21,840 nt of DNA from positions 2,960-24,799 of the IMG/VR virus record IMGVR_UViG_3300003319_000285; one strand, written 5' to 3'. The notes under the pieces were generated by a model that saw nothing but the letters and a program-made list of their open reading frames with translations, did no database searches and was not told where the DNA came from. A program made the position numbers and the translations under genes. Positions 2,380 through 16,130 of the stretch are shown here, in pieces (positions within the stretch are counted from its first letter, which is position 1; the number at the start of each line of letters is the position of its first letter). The stretch is from a virus.

Positions 2380-2436
2380 ATTGTTGAAAAAAGTTATTGA
2401 AAAGTTTATTTAAGTAGCAACAACAAAGGAGAAATC

Positions 2437-2838
2437 ATGGAGCAATATGTTTCTGTTAGAGAGGCCGCCAGGATAAAGAAAGTAACTAGGCAGGCGATAT
2501 ATTTAGCGATTCGGTTGAAAAAGCTTAGGGCATACAAATATGGCGACAGGTTTAGGATCTTTCGAGTGGACTTAGATGATTACGATAGTAAGAGGTATTC
2601 TCGAGAAATGACCACATACAAAGGGGAGCCAATCTATGACGATTCTAAAGGTGTTATGTCGATTGATAAAGCTGCTAAGATGCTGGGGATACCTACTCAG
2701 AAGGTATATTATGCTGCTAGGACGGGCAAGTTAAAGGCTATGAGAAAGGGATCTTGTTGGGTAGTTTATGTTGAAGATCTTTTCAGGTATCAGGATGACT
2801 ATTTAAAAAGTAACTTTACACATCGAGCGGTTTCATAG
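2437..2838 (+). CDS. EUO-like transcription factor with two excisionase-type HTH domains
   Basis: The 133 residues contain two MerR/excisionase-type DNA-binding units. The first is at residues 5-45 (SVREAARIKKVTRQAIYLAI, then RxFRVDLDDY). The second is at 74-125 (MSIDKAAKMLGIPTQKVYYA, then GSCWVVYVEDLFRYQDDYL). They are joined by a KRYSR...YKGEPIYDD linker. The order of parts, the RYSR-x-x-x-x-Y-x-GE linker and the RKGSxWVVYVxDLxRY close match what I recall of EUO, a protein of about 180 residues found across Chlamydiae. EUO represses late developmental genes. This copy lacks the longer N- and C-terminal extensions. AGGAG lies 6 nt before the ATG. By inference it may repress phage late genes or mimic the host regulator. 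Confidence 0.72.
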   Translation: MEQYVSVREAARIKKVTRQAIYLAIRLKKLRAYKYGDRFRIFRVDLDDYDSKRYSREMTTYKGEPIYDDSKGVMSIDKAAKMLGIPTQKVYYAARTGKLKAMRKGSCWVVYVEDLFRYQDDYLKSNFTHRAVS

Positions 2839-4311: not shown

Positions 4312-4385
4312 ACACGTGTTATGCACATATTACTAATTCAGTATATAGGCAGAATACACATATCAAACACGTAGGAGGCACATAT
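4312..4385. promoter_or_regulatory. Phased RCACATAT repeats upstream of parA (candidate operator/centromere)
   Basis: The octamer [GA]CACATAT occurs at 4323-4330, 4356-4363 and 4378-4385, spaced 33 and 22 bp, that is three and two helical turns. A fourth copy lies at 5054-5061 just before the partner gene. A longer 20-bp block at 4344-4363 recurs with 18 of 20 matches at 5042-5061. Clustered short repeats on one DNA face are how ribbon-helix-helix partition proteins bind their operator and centromere. ACACGT, a palindromic half, also appears twice (4312 and 4367). Confidence 0.5.
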
Positions 4386-5046
4386 GATAGTAGTCATCGG
4401 AGGTATCAAAGGTGGCAGTGGTAAAACAACCTTGGCAACGAATCTTGCAGCGATAAGGTCATTAGAAGGAAGCAAGATTCTGTTAGTCGATGCAGATGAG
4501 CAGAAGTCAGCAACTGATTGGGCGGCACAGAGAGACAGTTGGGAAATAGATGAAAGTCTTGCGGTAGTTCATCTTTCTGGCAAGGGGTTATATACTCAGG
4601 TACAGAAGCTCGGCTCAGATTATGACGAGGTTATTGTAGATGTAGGGGGAAGAGACACCACCAGTCAGAGAGCGGCACTAACGATAGCTGATATGTTTGT
4701 GGTTCCTTTCAAGCCTCGCTCGTTAGATATTTGGACTCTAGGGTCACTTAAGACGATGATAAACGAGATCAAGGCTGTGAATCCTTCGTTGGTGTGTCTT
4801 GCTGTGGTGAATCAAGCGGATGCAAGAGGTTCGGACAATAAAGAAGCAATAGAAATTCTGAAAGAGTGCGAAGAGATTCAGTGCTTAGAGGAATCAATTG
4901 GTTATCGGAAGGCCTTTGGTAATGCAGCATCTGAGGGCCTTTCCGTTGTTGAGATGAGAGATAAGGATAAAGACAAGAAAGCAATTGAGGAAATTAGAAA
5001 GCTTCATGATTACATATATGTCACATGTTTTGCAGGCAAGATATAG
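4384..5046 (+). CDS. parA: ParA-type partition ATPase
   Basis: The 220-residue protein carries the deviant Walker A KGGSGKTT (residues 9-16, signature lysine K9). The A-prime motif LLVDADEQ is at 33-40 and the Walker B VIVDVGGRD at 83-91. It has no N-terminal DNA-binding extension, so it belongs to the small plasmid ParA class that pairs with ribbon-helix-helix partners. A strong AGGAGG lies 5 nt before the ATG. The ATPase would use the nucleoid to segregate extrachromosomal copies through its partner at 5062. Presence of such a pair beside phage structural genes is the main argument for maintenance as a plasmid. Phage genomes that only integrate rarely need it. Confidence 0.92.
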   Translation: MIVVIGGIKGGSGKTTLATNLAAIRSLEGSKILLVDADEQKSATDWAAQRDSWEIDESLAVVHLSGKGLYTQVQKLGSDYDEVIVDVGGRDTTSQRAALTIADMFVVPFKPRSLDIWTLGSLKTMINEIKAVNPSLVCLAVVNQADARGSDNKEAIEILKECEEIQCLEESIGYRKAFGNAASEGLSVVEMRDKDKDKKAIEEIRKLHDYIYVTCFAGKI

Positions 5047-5061
5047 GCAGGAGACACATAT

Positions 5062-5289
5062 ATGACAATCAAAAGAAAAATAGAAAAAACAGAATTAAAC
5101 AAGGTCATCGAGAAGGGTGGTCATGTAACGGCAGATATGGATACGAAGGCACAGTGGACGACATTCACGCTTCGGATTAAGAGAAAGATGTTGAAGGAAA
5201 TAGGAGAAGCTATTGAAGACATAGAGGGTTTGAATAAGACAGGCTTTATGTTGCAGGCGATACAGGAGAAGTTGAAGAGGAGAGAATGA
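5062..5289 (+). CDS. ParB-like ribbon-helix-helix partner of ParA
   Basis: This 75-residue basic protein has a disordered N-terminus and a C-terminal ribbon-helix-helix: strand WTTFTLRIKRKMLKEIGEAI, then helix LNKTGFMLQAIQEKL. It follows parA by 15 nt. That is the usual place for the centromere-binding protein of type Ib-like partition loci (ParG and omega class). It would bind the RCACATAT repeats and also repress the operon. The sequence shared upstream of both genes, including the region right before this ATG, supports autoregulation. Its stop overlaps the RNA ligase start (ATGA). Confidence 0.7.
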   Translation: MTIKRKIEKTELNKVIEKGGHVTADMDTKAQWTTFTLRIKRKMLKEIGEAIEDIEGLNKTGFMLQAIQEKLKRRE

Positions 5290-6269
5290 CAGAAGAACCG
5301 GGCTTAGTTTACATCGGATTAATCGTGCAGGTAGATCCTATTCCGAATGCCGACCTCATCGTAAGTGCTACAGTTGTTTGCGGTAAAGGTGGTAGATGGC
5401 AAGGTGTCGTACGAAAAGATGAATTAAGCAAGGGAATGAAATGTGTTGTGTATCTTCCTGATGCGTTAATTCCTCCGACTGATGAAATGAGGTTCATGGA
5501 GAGCCGCGGATGGCGTGTGAGAATGTGCCGATTCCGCGGTGCTCCTAGTGAGGTTTTGATAATGCCTCTTCCTTTGTCTCACAAGATTCTTTGGCCTTTA
5601 GATGTTGGCACGGATGTGACCTTAGCTTTTGGTGTAACCAAGTATTTTAAACCAATTCCGGCCAATCTTCAGGGTCTTGCCAAGGGTGATTTTCCTCAGT
5701 TCATTCCAAAGACAGATGAGCTCAATTATCAGAGCAATTCTGACTTGGTAGAAGCTTTGCATGGCAACAAGTACTACATCACGGAGAAAGCAGACGGTTC
5801 ATCAACTACTGCGTTTAGGTACAAGGGTGAATTCGGCATCTGTAGCAGGAATTATGAGCTAGAGAGAAACTTAGAGAATGGCTATTGGAAAGTCGCAGAC
5901 AAGTACCAATTGGAGGCAAAACTTCCGAATAATATAGCGCTTCAGTGGGAGACATGCGGGCCAAAGATACAGAGCAATCCGATGGGGTTACATGAAGTGG
6001 ATGGATTCGCTTTTTCGTCTTATAATATTGAAGAAAAGCGATATTTGGTGATGGAGGAGTTCTTTCAGTTGTGTGATCAGCTTCAGTTCCCGACAGTTCG
6101 CTTAGTTGACAGAGGAAATGCGTTTGATAAGGAAAAAGTAGCAACTCTTGGCGAAGGCACATACGCTAATGGAAAAGAACGAGAAGGTGTAGTGGTCCGT
6201 TCACAAGGAAACCGCTCTGGTCATGGTCCTATCAGCTTCAAAGTCATTAACCTTAACTACGACAAATAA
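5286..6269 (+). CDS. ATP-dependent RNA ligase (DRB0094/Rnl5-like)
   Basis: The 327-residue protein has an N-terminal OB-like region (about 1-120) and a nucleotidyltransferase domain. Motif I is EKADGSS, with the adenylated lysine at K168. Motif III-like elements are GICSRN (184-189) and DGFAFS (239-244), motif IV is EGVVVRS (300-306) and motif V is SFKVIN with K319. An N-terminal OB domain in front of a KxDG ligase is the layout of the Deinococcus DRB0094 group, which seals nicks with 3'-OH/5'-phosphate ends in RNA. Phage RNA ligases usually repair tRNA cut by host anticodon nucleases. It overlaps the upstream gene by 4 nt. A tRNA-like element lies 0.4 kb downstream. Confidence 0.85.
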   Translation: MTEEPGLVYIGLIVQVDPIPNADLIVSATVVCGKGGRWQGVVRKDELSKGMKCVVYLPDALIPPTDEMRFMESRGWRVRMCRFRGAPSEVLIMPLPLSHKILWPLDVGTDVTLAFGVTKYFKPIPANLQGLAKGDFPQFIPKTDELNYQSNSDLVEALHGNKYYITEKADGSSTTAFRYKGEFGICSRNYELERNLENGYWKVADKYQLEAKLPNNIALQWETCGPKIQSNPMGLHEVDGFAFSSYNIEEKRYLVMEEFFQLCDQLQFPTVRLVDRGNAFDKEKVATLGEGTYANGKEREGVVVRSQGNRSGHGPISFKVINLNYDK

Positions 6270-6999: not shown

Positions 7000-7299
7000 A
7001 TGAAGAAATATATGATGATAACACCCGAGACATTTACTAAGCTTGGTGGGTGTTTTGCTGGAGGTGAAGAGGTCCAAACGTTTGTCGAGCAGATGAATGA
7101 AGTGATGGATGAATTAGCATTTAACAAACTGTTGATACAAAGGGTTGAGCTAGACCAATCGACTGTTCTTCTTATGAAACAGATATGTATTTTTAGTTTG
7201 TTTTGCCGAGAGCATATGGATTTGATTCACCAACTCATCGCTAATTTGAGCCTGCATGAGATGACGGAAGAGGAAATCAACAAGTTCAAAGGGGAATGA
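7000..7299 (+). CDS. Hypothetical protein preceding the large terminase
   Basis: The 99-residue product is unrecognised. It reads as all-helical, with acidic segments and a hydrophobic middle (LLMKQICIFSLFCREHMDLI) that is amphipathic rather than a clear membrane span. It is the first gene after the terminator and motif copy 1, and overlaps the terminase start by ATGA. Position alone would suggest a small terminase subunit, but it lacks the packaging-protein motif seen at 1146-1574 and has no obvious DNA-binding element. No strong ribosome binding site is visible before its ATG. Confidence 0.7.
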   Translation: MKKYMMITPETFTKLGGCFAGGEEVQTFVEQMNEVMDELAFNKLLIQRVELDQSTVLLMKQICIFSLFCREHMDLIHQLIANLSLHEMTEEEINKFKGE

Positions 7300-8627
7300 T
7301 GTCGATAACGATTCCTTACGGATACTCGCCTAGACACTATCAAGAAAACATATTAACCGCATTGGATGACGGCTGTCGAAATGCCTGCTGGGTTGTACAT
7401 CGCCGAGGGGGTAAAGACACTACGATGTGGAACTACATGATTAAACGCGCTTACCTTGAGCCTGGCACGTATTATTATTTCTTACCAAGCTTTGCGCAAG
7501 CCAAGAGAGTGGTCTGGGATGGAATGACAAACGAAGGTAAGAGGATGTTGGATTACATTCCCAAGGCAATTATAGATGGTAACCCAAACAACACGGAGAT
7601 GAAGGTTTGGATAAACGGAGCATCCGGACAGAGCCTTATACAATTGATTGGTGCAGACAGTTACGACGCCATTATGGGAACGAATCCACGCGGAGTGATA
7701 TTTAGCGAATGGTCTTTGATGGATCCGATGGCATATGAGTTCGTGAAGCCGATTCTTGCTGCTAATGGTGGCTGGTGTGCTTTTATCTACACTCCCCGAG
7801 GCAAGAATCATGGATGGGAGTTGGCAGAAATTGCGAGAAGAAATCCTGACGAATGGTTTTTTGAGATACTGACCGTCAGAGATACTGGTGTTCTCACGGA
7901 GGATCAGGTAGAGGCAGAGCGCAGAAAAGGCATGCCAGAGGACATGATACAACAGGAGTTCTTTTGCAACTTCAACCGAGGACAGGAAGGAAGCTACTAC
8001 GGCCGACAAGTTGATGAGCTGCGCAAGAAAGGACAAATAACAAAAGTTAGCTATGACCCTGCAGTACCTGTGCGAACGTATTGGGACCTTGGCATTGGTG
8101 ATTCTACGGCAATTTGGTTTGCTCAGTTTGTTGGTAAAGAGATCCATTTGATTAATTACTATGAGAACTCCGGTGAAGGATTAGCTCACTATGCACGAAT
8201 TTTGGATGAGTTTCGGAGAGAAGTCGGATGTGTATATGACCTTCACGTTGCTCCACATGACATTCAAGCGAGGGAACTGACAACAGGGAAGACAAGACTT
8301 GAAACAGCTCGTTGGTTAGGTCTGAGCTTCCGTGTTGCGCCAAAACTGAGCTTAGAGTCTGGGATAGAAGCTGTGCGTATGATTCTCTCACGTTGCTGGT
8401 TTGATGAAAGGCGATGCGAGCATGGGATAAAGTGCCTGGAGAACTACCGCAAGCAGTACAATGAGAAGTTTCGTGTGTATGGAGATAAGCCGTTTCACGA
8501 TTATACTTCGCATGGGGCTGATGCCTTTCGTATGATGGCGATAACGGAGGGTCAATTTCGTCCAGATCGTGGCGTGGATGATGTTGACTATGACCGAATG
8601 AAGAGCTTGTGGGGTTGGCGTGTTTAA
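7296..8627 (+). CDS. Terminase large subunit (packaging ATPase/nuclease)
   Basis: The 443-residue protein shows the ATPase signature HRRGGKDT (residues 35-42, Walker A variant), VIFSEW with the catalytic glutamate (134-139, Walker B) and a coupling element YTPRGKNH (165-172). The nuclease domain has WDLGIGDST (D264), PHDIQ (D322) and HGADAFR (D409), the spaced acidic residues of the RNase H-like fold. The short, compact form resembles large terminases of podoviruses with N4-gp56-type capsids. It pumps DNA into the prohead through the portal and cuts concatemers. Two methionines open the gene; the ATGA overlap favours the first. The stop is followed by a TTAAGTTG/CAACTTGA hairpin (8624-8659) without a T-run. 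Confidence 0.95.
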   Translation: MMSITIPYGYSPRHYQENILTALDDGCRNACWVVHRRGGKDTTMWNYMIKRAYLEPGTYYYFLPSFAQAKRVVWDGMTNEGKRMLDYIPKAIIDGNPNNTEMKVWINGASGQSLIQLIGADSYDAIMGTNPRGVIFSEWSLMDPMAYEFVKPILAANGGWCAFIYTPRGKNHGWELAEIARRNPDEWFFEILTVRDTGVLTEDQVEAERRKGMPEDMIQQEFFCNFNRGQEGSYYGRQVDELRKKGQITKVSYDPAVPVRTYWDLGIGDSTAIWFAQFVGKEIHLINYYENSGEGLAHYARILDEFRREVGCVYDLHVAPHDIQARELTTGKTRLETARWLGLSFRVAPKLSLESGIEAVRMILSRCWFDERRCEHGIKCLENYRKQYNEKFRVYGDKPFHDYTSHGADAFRMMAITEGQFRPDRGVDDVDYDRMKSLWGWRV

Positions 8628-10329: not shown

Positions 10330-12291
10330 ATGCCAACAGATTACGACATTGTTTCCGATTTCACCCAGGATTACAACCGCGCTTACATGCTTCTTAACAC
10401 CTACTATGCCGAGGCTTATCGCGATGTAGGCTTCTATCTTGGTAATCAGTGGAGTCTCGATCAATTAAAATATCTCAGCGACGAGAGACGGAATTCATTC
10501 ACGTTTAACAAATCACGCAAGACTATCAACATGGTCAGCGGATACTTGAGTGCAAATCAGATGCAGAGTGTCGTTGTCCATAGAGAGAACTCGAATCCTG
10601 AGACAGCAGAGCAGTTGACTGACTTGCTTCAAACACAGATGCGGCCAAAAGGTTACAAAGTAGCGAATAAAGCTAAACACAATAGTCTCGTGTCCGGAGT
10701 CGCTTGGGTTTCACCTTGGGTTGACTATCGGCAAGACTATGTGAATGGCCGGATTGACTTTCACCTGGACAACTGGAACGACGTGATCTGGGACCCGTTC
10801 AGTACTCGAATCGACTTGCAGGACAGCACTTTCGTGGCAAGAAGGAAGTACCTGAGCAAAGACGTCATCAAGTCATTAGTCCCTGGCTGCGAAAGAGAAG
10901 TCGATGCGATGGGATATGGTAATAGAGACGAGAAGTTTACCTATGAACCGTACGCAAGACAATGGGGACTACAGGAGCTGCTTGCCTACAATGAATACTG
11001 GAAGCAGCGGTACAAGAAAGGCTGGATACTGGTGGATAAAGCAACTGGTGAACAAAAGCCATGGAAGGGAGACAAGAAGCGCTTGGATATGCTTCAGCGA
11101 TTCTTTCCCAGTCTTGCTGTTATCGAAGGATATTATCTCACGGTTGAATATAACATCATCGTTGAGAATCGCCTGTTGTATAGCGGGGAAGATCCTTGGG
11201 GCTTGGGAGAATATCCTTTTGTGCCCTACTACTGCGTATTTGATCCATCGTATGACCTGGCTCAGTGGAAGTGGCAAGGGCTGCAGAGACTACTCCGTGA
11301 TTCCCAAGAAGAGTACAACATGCGCAAGTCTAAGCTGCTTGATATTGTTGATTCGCAGATAGGTGTCGGTTGGAAAGCAAAATCCGGTGCAGTGTCTAAT
11401 CCTAAGTCTTTGTTCCAGACAGGCCAGGGCAAGGTGATCTTCTTCAATCCTGGCTTTGAGTTGTCCGATGCTGAGCGTATTGAGCCTCCTTCGATTCCTG
11501 AGAGCTTATTTGCTTTGCAAGAGTCTTTCGATGCTGACATTAAGGACTTCGTCGACTTGGGTGCATTGGGGAACGACCAGAGCGACCGGATGAGTGCCAT
11601 GCTTTACAAGATGAAGCAATCCATGGCGATCATGCAGTTGGGTCCGATTATGGACAATTTCCGTGAGGCGGACTATCTGCTTAACAAGAAAGTGCTCAAG
11701 ATGATTCAAAAGTTCACGCCAGAGAAGGTAGAGCGATTGATTAAGCAACAACCGACTCCTGAGTTTTATAATAACACGTTCCTTGAGTACGACATTGACT
11801 TTGCTGAGATGCCGATGACCGATTACCAGAAGCAGTCGGCATTCATGCAAGCTTGGACGATGAAGATGGGCGGCGTAGATGTTCCGGACGAGCTGATGTG
11901 GGAATTGTCACCTTATCCGATCAGCAAGAAAGGCATGCAGCTCATTCAACAAAGATCAGAAGCCGCACAAGCACAACAGCAGCAAGAGGTCGAGGACAAG
12001 CAGCAGGTGAACGAACTCCTACAGGCGAAAGCATTTGGGGACATCGCCTTAGGACAAGAGCGGCTTAGCAGGATCAAGTACGATGCCGCGTTGAGCGAGG
12101 AAAGACTTGCGGCAGCACAGGAAGAAAGAAGCCGAGCTGGTCTCAATGAGGTCCGTGCGATTAAAGAGATGGACGAGATTGATATCAACAATGCTGGGAA
12201 GTTGCTCGACATGATTAGAGCTATTGAAGAAGAGCAACGATTGAAGCAAGCCGATACAGTCGTTCCTCAACCAGCAGTGACAGGTGCTTAA
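10330..12291 (+). CDS. Portal protein (P22-like)
   Basis: The 653-residue protein has the size and features of podovirus portals. The N-terminus is helical (DYNRAYMLLNTYYAEAYRDV) with a Phe-Asn-Lys-Ser-Arg core segment. A tryptophan-rich wing follows (DNWNDVIWDPFSTRIDL). A stem/crown-type helix comes near QEEYNMRKSKLLDIVDSQIG. The C-terminal part, about residues 520-640, is a long Gln/Glu/Ala-rich coiled coil, as in P22-type barrels. Twelve copies form the ring through which DNA enters and leaves. It is the first gene after motif copy 2 and leads a long run of late genes. Its stop overlaps the next ATG (TAATG). The ribosome binding site is poor (only GCGG just before ATG). Confidence 0.88.
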   Translation: MPTDYDIVSDFTQDYNRAYMLLNTYYAEAYRDVGFYLGNQWSLDQLKYLSDERRNSFTFNKSRKTINMVSGYLSANQMQSVVVHRENSNPETAEQLTDLLQTQMRPKGYKVANKAKHNSLVSGVAWVSPWVDYRQDYVNGRIDFHLDNWNDVIWDPFSTRIDLQDSTFVARRKYLSKDVIKSLVPGCEREVDAMGYGNRDEKFTYEPYARQWGLQELLAYNEYWKQRYKKGWILVDKATGEQKPWKGDKKRLDMLQRFFPSLAVIEGYYLTVEYNIIVENRLLYSGEDPWGLGEYPFVPYYCVFDPSYDLAQWKWQGLQRLLRDSQEEYNMRKSKLLDIVDSQIGVGWKAKSGAVSNPKSLFQTGQGKVIFFNPGFELSDAERIEPPSIPESLFALQESFDADIKDFVDLGALGNDQSDRMSAMLYKMKQSMAIMQLGPIMDNFREADYLLNKKVLKMIQKFTPEKVERLIKQQPTPEFYNNTFLEYDIDFAEMPMTDYQKQSAFMQAWTMKMGGVDVPDELMWELSPYPISKKGMQLIQQRSEAAQAQQQQEVEDKQQVNELLQAKAFGDIALGQERLSRIKYDAALSEERLAAAQEERSRAGLNEVRAIKEMDEIDINNAGKLLDMIRAIEEEQRLKQADTVVPQPAVTGA

Positions 12292-15185: not shown

Positions 15186-16130
15186 ATGCCTATTACAACA
15201 ACCGCGCAAGTCCCTCCAGAGGTGCGGACTTACTTCGACAGGCTCCTGCTTACACTAGCAAGGCCTTATTACATTTACGACATGTTTGCCCAGAAGAGAA
15301 CAATTCCTCTCAACTCTGGCGATCAGATGATTTTCAGACGCTATGCGACTCTTTCTGCTGCGACAGTACCTATTACAGACGGTACCACTCCTCCAGGAGA
15401 TGCGTTAGCCGTTACAGACTTCAGCACACAGATCAAGTGGTACGGAAACTTCGTCGTTATCACCGATCAGGTCCAGTTTACTGTGCAGGATCGAGTATTA
15501 AACGAAGCAACAAGAGTACTTTCGCTTCAGCTTGGACTTACGATCGACACTCTGATCAGAAACATGATGGTCGCTACGGCTTCCTCTATTCTCTGCTCCA
15601 ATGGTGTTAACGGTAACACTCCTACAGAGATTACAACCGCAGATATTAAGACTGCCGTGCGTGCTCTTCGTTTGGGTAACGCTCGCTTGATGACGAAGCC
15701 TATCCCAGGGGAAAATCGCTTTGCGACATCTCCTGTTAGATCAAGCTATTGGGGATTCATGGATGTTTCGATTCAGAATGACCTTGAAGCTTGCGCAGAC
15801 TTTTTAAGTGCAGCTAACTATCCCAACCCAATGGATGCTCTAGAGGCTGAATGGGGTTCAACTAACAACGTACGCTGGCTGTTGAGCACTAACGGATTCT
15901 CCACAAGTGCATCGCCCCCAGTTTGGAACAACATTATCTTAGGTCAAGAGGCTTATGGGGTTGTCAAGCTTGGTTCGAAAGAGGCCGAGTTCATCGTTAA
16001 GCCATTAGGTTCTAGCGGTACATCTGACCCATTAAACCAGCGTGGTTCTGTTGGGTACAAGTATCCGTTTGCTACTCGCCTCCTGAACGACAACTGGATT
16101 ACACGATTGTTATCCACACAAAGACTTTAA
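15186..16130 (+). CDS. Major capsid protein, N4-gp56 family
   Basis: The 314-residue protein starts MPITTTAQVPPEVRTYFDRL and continues with LARPYYIYDMFAQKRTIPLN and GDQMIFRRYATLSAATVPIT. The string of features YFDRxLLxxA, then K-R-x-x-P-x-x-x-G-x-x-[IM]-x-F-R-R-Y, then LTEG/LTDG-like TDGTTP, is characteristic of N4-gp56-family capsid proteins with an HK97-type fold. The end, VGYKYPFATRLLNDNWITRL, is also family-like (genomic ends with trimer-forming strand). AAGG lies 5 nt upstream. It forms the icosahedral shell. The gene follows the scaffold by 17 nt, the expected arrangement. Confidence 0.93.
   Translation: MPITTTAQVPPEVRTYFDRLLLTLARPYYIYDMFAQKRTIPLNSGDQMIFRRYATLSAATVPITDGTTPPGDALAVTDFSTQIKWYGNFVVITDQVQFTVQDRVLNEATRVLSLQLGLTIDTLIRNMMVATASSILCSNGVNGNTPTEITTADIKTAVRALRLGNARLMTKPIPGENRFATSPVRSSYWGFMDVSIQNDLEACADFLSAANYPNPMDALEAEWGSTNNVRWLLSTNGFSTSASPPVWNNIILGQEAYGVVKLGSKEAEFIVKPLGSSGTSDPLNQRGSVGYKYPFATRLLNDNWITRLLSTQRL

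Follow-up and report, generated by a model that had tools for sequence, protein, structure and literature searches.

Gene content of the phage region

The window, that is, the whole stretch of 21,840 nucleotides analyzed here, is part of a 24,799-bp IMG/VR virus record. A XerD-like tyrosine recombinase is encoded on the minus strand at 3–689 (TIGR02225, E 2e-47), its C-terminal part lying to the left of the window; the other genes named below are located on the plus strand. They include genes encoding a 142-aa phage protein (1146–1574), which sibling phages have conserved next to the control region; an XRE/Cro-type repressor-like protein of 71 aa (2164–2379; HTH_3, E 3e-14); a 133-aa EUO-like regulator (2437–2838); ParA-type partition ATPase (4384–5046; NF041546, E 1e-45, under the curated cut-off); RNA ligase (5286–6269; PF09414, E 1e-21); the large subunit of terminase (7296–8627; phrog_2, E 3e-21), used as the marker for finding sibling phages; portal protein (10330–12291; phrog_156, E 2e-55); and major head protein (15186–16130; phrog_1357, E 6e-41). 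Terminase, portal and head protein, together with the XerD-like recombinase, the XRE protein, RNA ligase and ParA, identify the carrier of the EUO-like gene as a tailed phage that is temperate and has a partition gene; it is probably plasmid-like. Sibling records are about 38–41 kb long; in two of them, G243 and G258, comparison of the first with the last kilobase shows 126 and 70 bp in common, a stretch that runs up to the record’s right end. These shared ends fit complete genomes of about 40 kb, so the record containing the window is partial.

The recombinases of the window and of the related phage L005 (5951–6844, minus strand) are both XerD-like rather than typical phage integrases, which may mean integration of the Xer/dif type. 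Genes of RNA repair are common in the window phage clade, represented by the RNA ligase of the window and by RtcB ligase in the sibling L044 (4946–6106).

The EUO-like gene and its control region

The EUO-like gene extends from ATG to TAG and is preceded by the ribosome-binding site AAAGGAG, read from the sequence at 2425–2431 (plus strand). Two excisionase-type HTH units, noticed in the earlier note, are confirmed in the product at about residues 4–52 and 73–122: Pfam HTH_17 (E 2e-18) and TIGR01764 ‘excise’ (E 3e-14) were each matched in two stretches, and the AlphaFold2 model (pLDDT 85) contains two helix-helix-wing (winged-HTH) units. The linker proposed between them, ‘RYSR...YKGE’, was found as RYSREMTTYKGE; across 94 chromosomal EUOs, conservation reaches 95% or more at its residues Y54, S55, R56, G63 and E64. 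The same note described the product as shorter than the host EUO, which is true only in part: the EUOs found in Chlamydia are mostly 181–189 aa long, but chromosomal EUOs overall begin at 134 aa, the median being 150 aa. The part absent from the window protein is the variable N-terminal tail.

The XRE repressor gene noted earlier as a neighbor lies directly upstream, separated from the EUO-like gene by a 57-bp AT-rich gap (2380–2436; 25% GC), a candidate operator. Upstream of the XRE gene, a 590-bp intergenic control region (1575–2163) carries 37-bp direct repeats at 1759–1795 and 1862–1898, 103 bp apart, a possible iteron, centromere or operator; the repeat core GATGAGYGAARCGRTC was also found upstream of the EUO-like gene of L203. 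Homologues of the window’s XRE gene likewise lie directly upstream of the EUO-like gene in L005, L042, L045 and L048. In L196, L197, L199, L200, L201, L204 and L251 the EUO-like gene comes immediately behind, or overlaps with, a small gene of the Cro/XRE type, several of the HTH matches being weak and below the Pfam cut-off. The pair is thus present in the window clade and in a second terminase clade. A Fisher test of XRE-EUO co-occurrence gave p 0.01, but the loci were assigned by hand and the value carries no weight. In the sibling L004 (8973–9466) the place of the XRE gene upstream of the EUO-like gene is taken by what, judged by eye, resembles a toxin–antitoxin pair of the RelBE type.

Scans for the EUO box (the Waddlia 15-mer and the minimal box), which the earlier note had recommended, remained at chance level without enrichment in the window or upstream of the phage copies. 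This is weak evidence, neither demonstrating nor excluding binding, given a published motif that is AT-rich and degenerate. Scans for promoters and terminators likewise stayed at chance level.

Homology to chromosomal EUO

Of 234 Chlamydiota genomes, 211 contain a match to the product of the EUO-like gene with E ≤ 1e-5, typically 1e-34 to 1e-41 (best 8.6e-42); the product is 44–55% identical to the best chromosomal EUOs. The chromosomal EUO of Candidatus Neptunochlamydia, encoded adjoining gltX and the gene for a tail-specific protease, is 48% identical (E 1e-39). No comparable rival match was found in 50,697 phage records, where the best match reached E 0.04 and covered 65% of the protein, nor did 72,556 plasmids contain any match at E 0.01. 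Solved structures yielded no informative sequence relative. A profile built solely from the 94 chromosomal EUOs gave 169 bits for the window protein, 61–163 bits for divergent phage copies and at most 39 bits for viral excisionases with a single HTH; the Pfam/NCBIfam label ‘excisionase’ was accordingly rejected as too general.

The EUO-like identity suggested earlier is thus upheld: the match to EUO far exceeds that to generic excisionases, and no closer match occurs in phages of other hosts. Judged by its sequence, the protein is a full-length EUO homologue, not a generic excisionase. The gene is located on a phage record, not beside gltX and the tail-specific protease gene, a chromosomal context displayed by L003; it is therefore a homologue of EUO rather than the chromosomal euo gene itself. 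Viral contigs scanned with patterns derived from the window protein alone, which did not fall at conserved positions, yielded no relatives. An alignment of the window protein with an EUO fragment served only to choose search patterns, and no conclusion is based on it.

Among 56 near-invariant EUO positions (at least 95% conserved in the 94 chromosomal EUOs), 46 are retained in the window protein and ten are changed: V23L, K26R, W39F, K58M, S59T, L65P, F67Y, Q78K, T94A and A107C. Residues Y22, R38 and Y91 correspond by spacing to Y31, R47 and Y100 of Waddlia EUO, the triple mutation of which impairs promoter binding (PMC4989314); Y/R/Y occupy these DNA-binding positions in all 94 chromosomal EUOs. 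Several other phage copies differ at the wing arginine (R38) and within the second recognition helix, so that their binding specificity may have moved.

Distribution among phages

The terminase search retrieved about 40 closely related records with 74–94% identity. The EUO-like gene is present in 11 of the 40 records of the window clade, including 8 of the 19 that are at least 36 kb long; since only about a third of the siblings carry it, this phage type can do without it. Phage EUOs are only 33–63% identical to one another although their terminases are much closer, which indicates that the gene diverges quickly. Full-length EUO-like copies were also found in a second terminase clade, 45–51% identical to the window terminase (L196, L197, L199, L201/L202 and L251), and in records with a remote terminase or no related one (L195, L205, L006, L200 and L204). 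By sequence comparison, divergent EUO-like copies are present in at least two lineages of tailed phages beyond the window clade. More than 20 of the divergent copies in phages have intact open reading frames; closely related pairs are all identical, leaving no usable pairs for dN/dS.

Host of the phage

Homology and binning indicate that the tailed virus of the window very probably infects chlamydia-like bacteria. Contig C232 (locus L251) of the chlamydial MAG G038 holds both an EUO-like gene and terminase, while the MAG’s own chromosomal EUO is located on a different contig. For the XerD-like integrase, the nearest matches are in Chlamydiota (46–47%), compared with about 36% for the best listed plasmid matches. 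Genes for U-box proteins (ubiquitin ligase type), scoring above the Pfam cut-off, were found on the minus strand of two EUO-carrying phages from two terminase clades, L005 (3556–4596) and L197 (19572–20315), which fits phages whose bacterial hosts live inside eukaryotes. The 142-aa neighbor protein is nearly absent from chlamydial genomes and uninformative on the host. Taken separately from function, the EUO homology of the window gene, its phage setting and the chlamydial host are strongly supported.

The phage U-box proteins are possible eukaryote-directed cargo. A terminase remnant adjoining a transposase gene in a 125-kb chlamydial contig (L252; G162:C1, 12000–31999) was read as a decayed prophage of a related type in a chlamydial chromosome and likewise points to a chlamydial host.

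Proposed function

EUO governs the switch between replicating and infectious forms of Chlamydiae (PMC11423577, PMC9816063). The window protein is most likely a DNA-binding early regulator of the phage, predicted to read operators of the EUO type. The best clue to function is the recurrence of the XRE–EUO pair in separate phage lineages, which suggests a regulatory cassette opening the rightward gene block and points first to control of the phage’s own genes. We consider it moderately probable that the EUO homologue and the XRE protein form an early switch of the phage, tied to the stage of the host cycle by an operator code shared with the host. The phage protein would bind AT-rich operators through both HTH units and act jointly with the XRE protein on early transcription; because it would share the operator code of host EUO, phage transcription would follow the host cycle.

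Direct action on host late genes, keeping the cell replicating, is possible but less certain. The two roles raised in the earlier note, linking induction to the host cycle or keeping the host in its replicating form, are made plausible by the DNA-reading residues that the window copy retains, but the EUO-box scans lend them no support. Excess EUO arrests development of C. trachomatis and blocks production of infectious forms (PMC11423577, PMC10653925), so a phage copy reading the same sites could do likewise. That repression of host late genes in trans should be the main role of the protein, a replicating cell favoring phage production, appears rather unlikely: the window copy nearly equals host EUO in the residues that read DNA, and the C. 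trachomatis overexpression result agrees with such a role, but specificity residues are divergent in many other phage copies and the recurring XRE-EUO cassette suggests self-regulation. It is improbable that the protein serves as a recombination directionality factor of the phage’s own integrase, either as an excisionase or as a Cox-like repressor and excisionase, in spite of its excisionase-type HTH units, the best PHROG match (‘excisionase and transcriptional regulator’), fold matches that include Xis and RdfS, and an integrase gene 1.7 kb away in the window clade. The copies of L196, L197, L199, L201 and L251 lie beside genes for RusA, exonuclease or terminase, on partial contigs, with no homologue of the window integrase in the stretch examined around them, which disfavors a pure excisionase role; moreover, many siblings have the integrase without the EUO-like gene, and no excisionase family comes close to EUO as a match to the protein.

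Recent capture of a host gene, now a passenger with no phage-specific role, would agree with the LG+G4 tree restricted to slow phage copies, where the window group falls beside EUO of G113 and G114 (94/94). This explanation is very improbable, given the intact reading frames of the divergent phage copies, the position behind an XRE gene repeated in separate lineages, and the C20 mixture-model tree, which places phage copies outside the chromosomal EUO clade (94/90).

Comparison with known systems

EUO of Chlamydiota shares with the window protein two tandem excisionase-like winged HTH units with equal spacing, the conserved linker and the DNA-binding residues; the window copy differs in being phage-encoded behind an XRE gene, in lacking the N-terminal tail and in the ten changed near-invariant positions. 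The best structure matches of the model were TraN, Xis, BldC and RdfS. The excisionases Xis, TorI and P2 Cox (phrog_66) have the same winged-HTH fold of the unit (4j2n, 8dgl), and an integrase is located near the copies of the window clade; however, the window protein consists of two fused units with an EUO-specific linker, is far nearer to EUO in sequence, and has relatives in phages without a window-type integrase near by. TraN of enterococcal conjugative plasmids (4pm3), also composed of two fused excisionase-like wHTH units, is the best whole-chain structure match, but with 14% identity and a full-chain TM-score of 0.35–0.40, and it functions in transfer rather than in developmental regulation. 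BldC of Streptomyces (6ama), a small excisionase/MerR-like DNA-binding protein controlling development, has the fold of the unit, but it contains a single HTH unit, belongs to an unrelated host and shows no close sequence relation.

Origin and significance

EUO has been stated to be absent outside Chlamydiota (PMC11423577, PMC1403754) and termed a putative chlamydial invention (PMC9816063). No report of a phage-borne EUO was found in the open-access literature (subscription papers and preprints being outside the scope), which also offered next to nothing about chlamydial tailed phages. The phage family represents the first outside relatives of EUO found, makes the origin and operator code of EUO testable, and flags tailed phages of a phylum described mainly with small chlamydiaphages.

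A single clade of all slow phage copies was not rejected (p 0.40). The placements of phage copies in the C20 and LG+G4 trees are both unsafe because of long branches; consequently, capture from the host and a phage origin of EUO are both possible. A descent of EUO from XRE-linked early regulators of tailed phages, with present phages keeping the ancestral family, is proposed here as a speculative and on balance unlikely scenario. If true, such an origin would make the master developmental regulator of Chlamydiae a domesticated phage switch.

A second chromosomal EUO (‘EUO2’), forming one well-supported clade (L125, L126, L157–L161 and others), was found in genomes G116, G117, G122, G123, G125, G128, G139, G145, G146, G157 and G161, in many of which it is located within about 1–2 kb of EUO.
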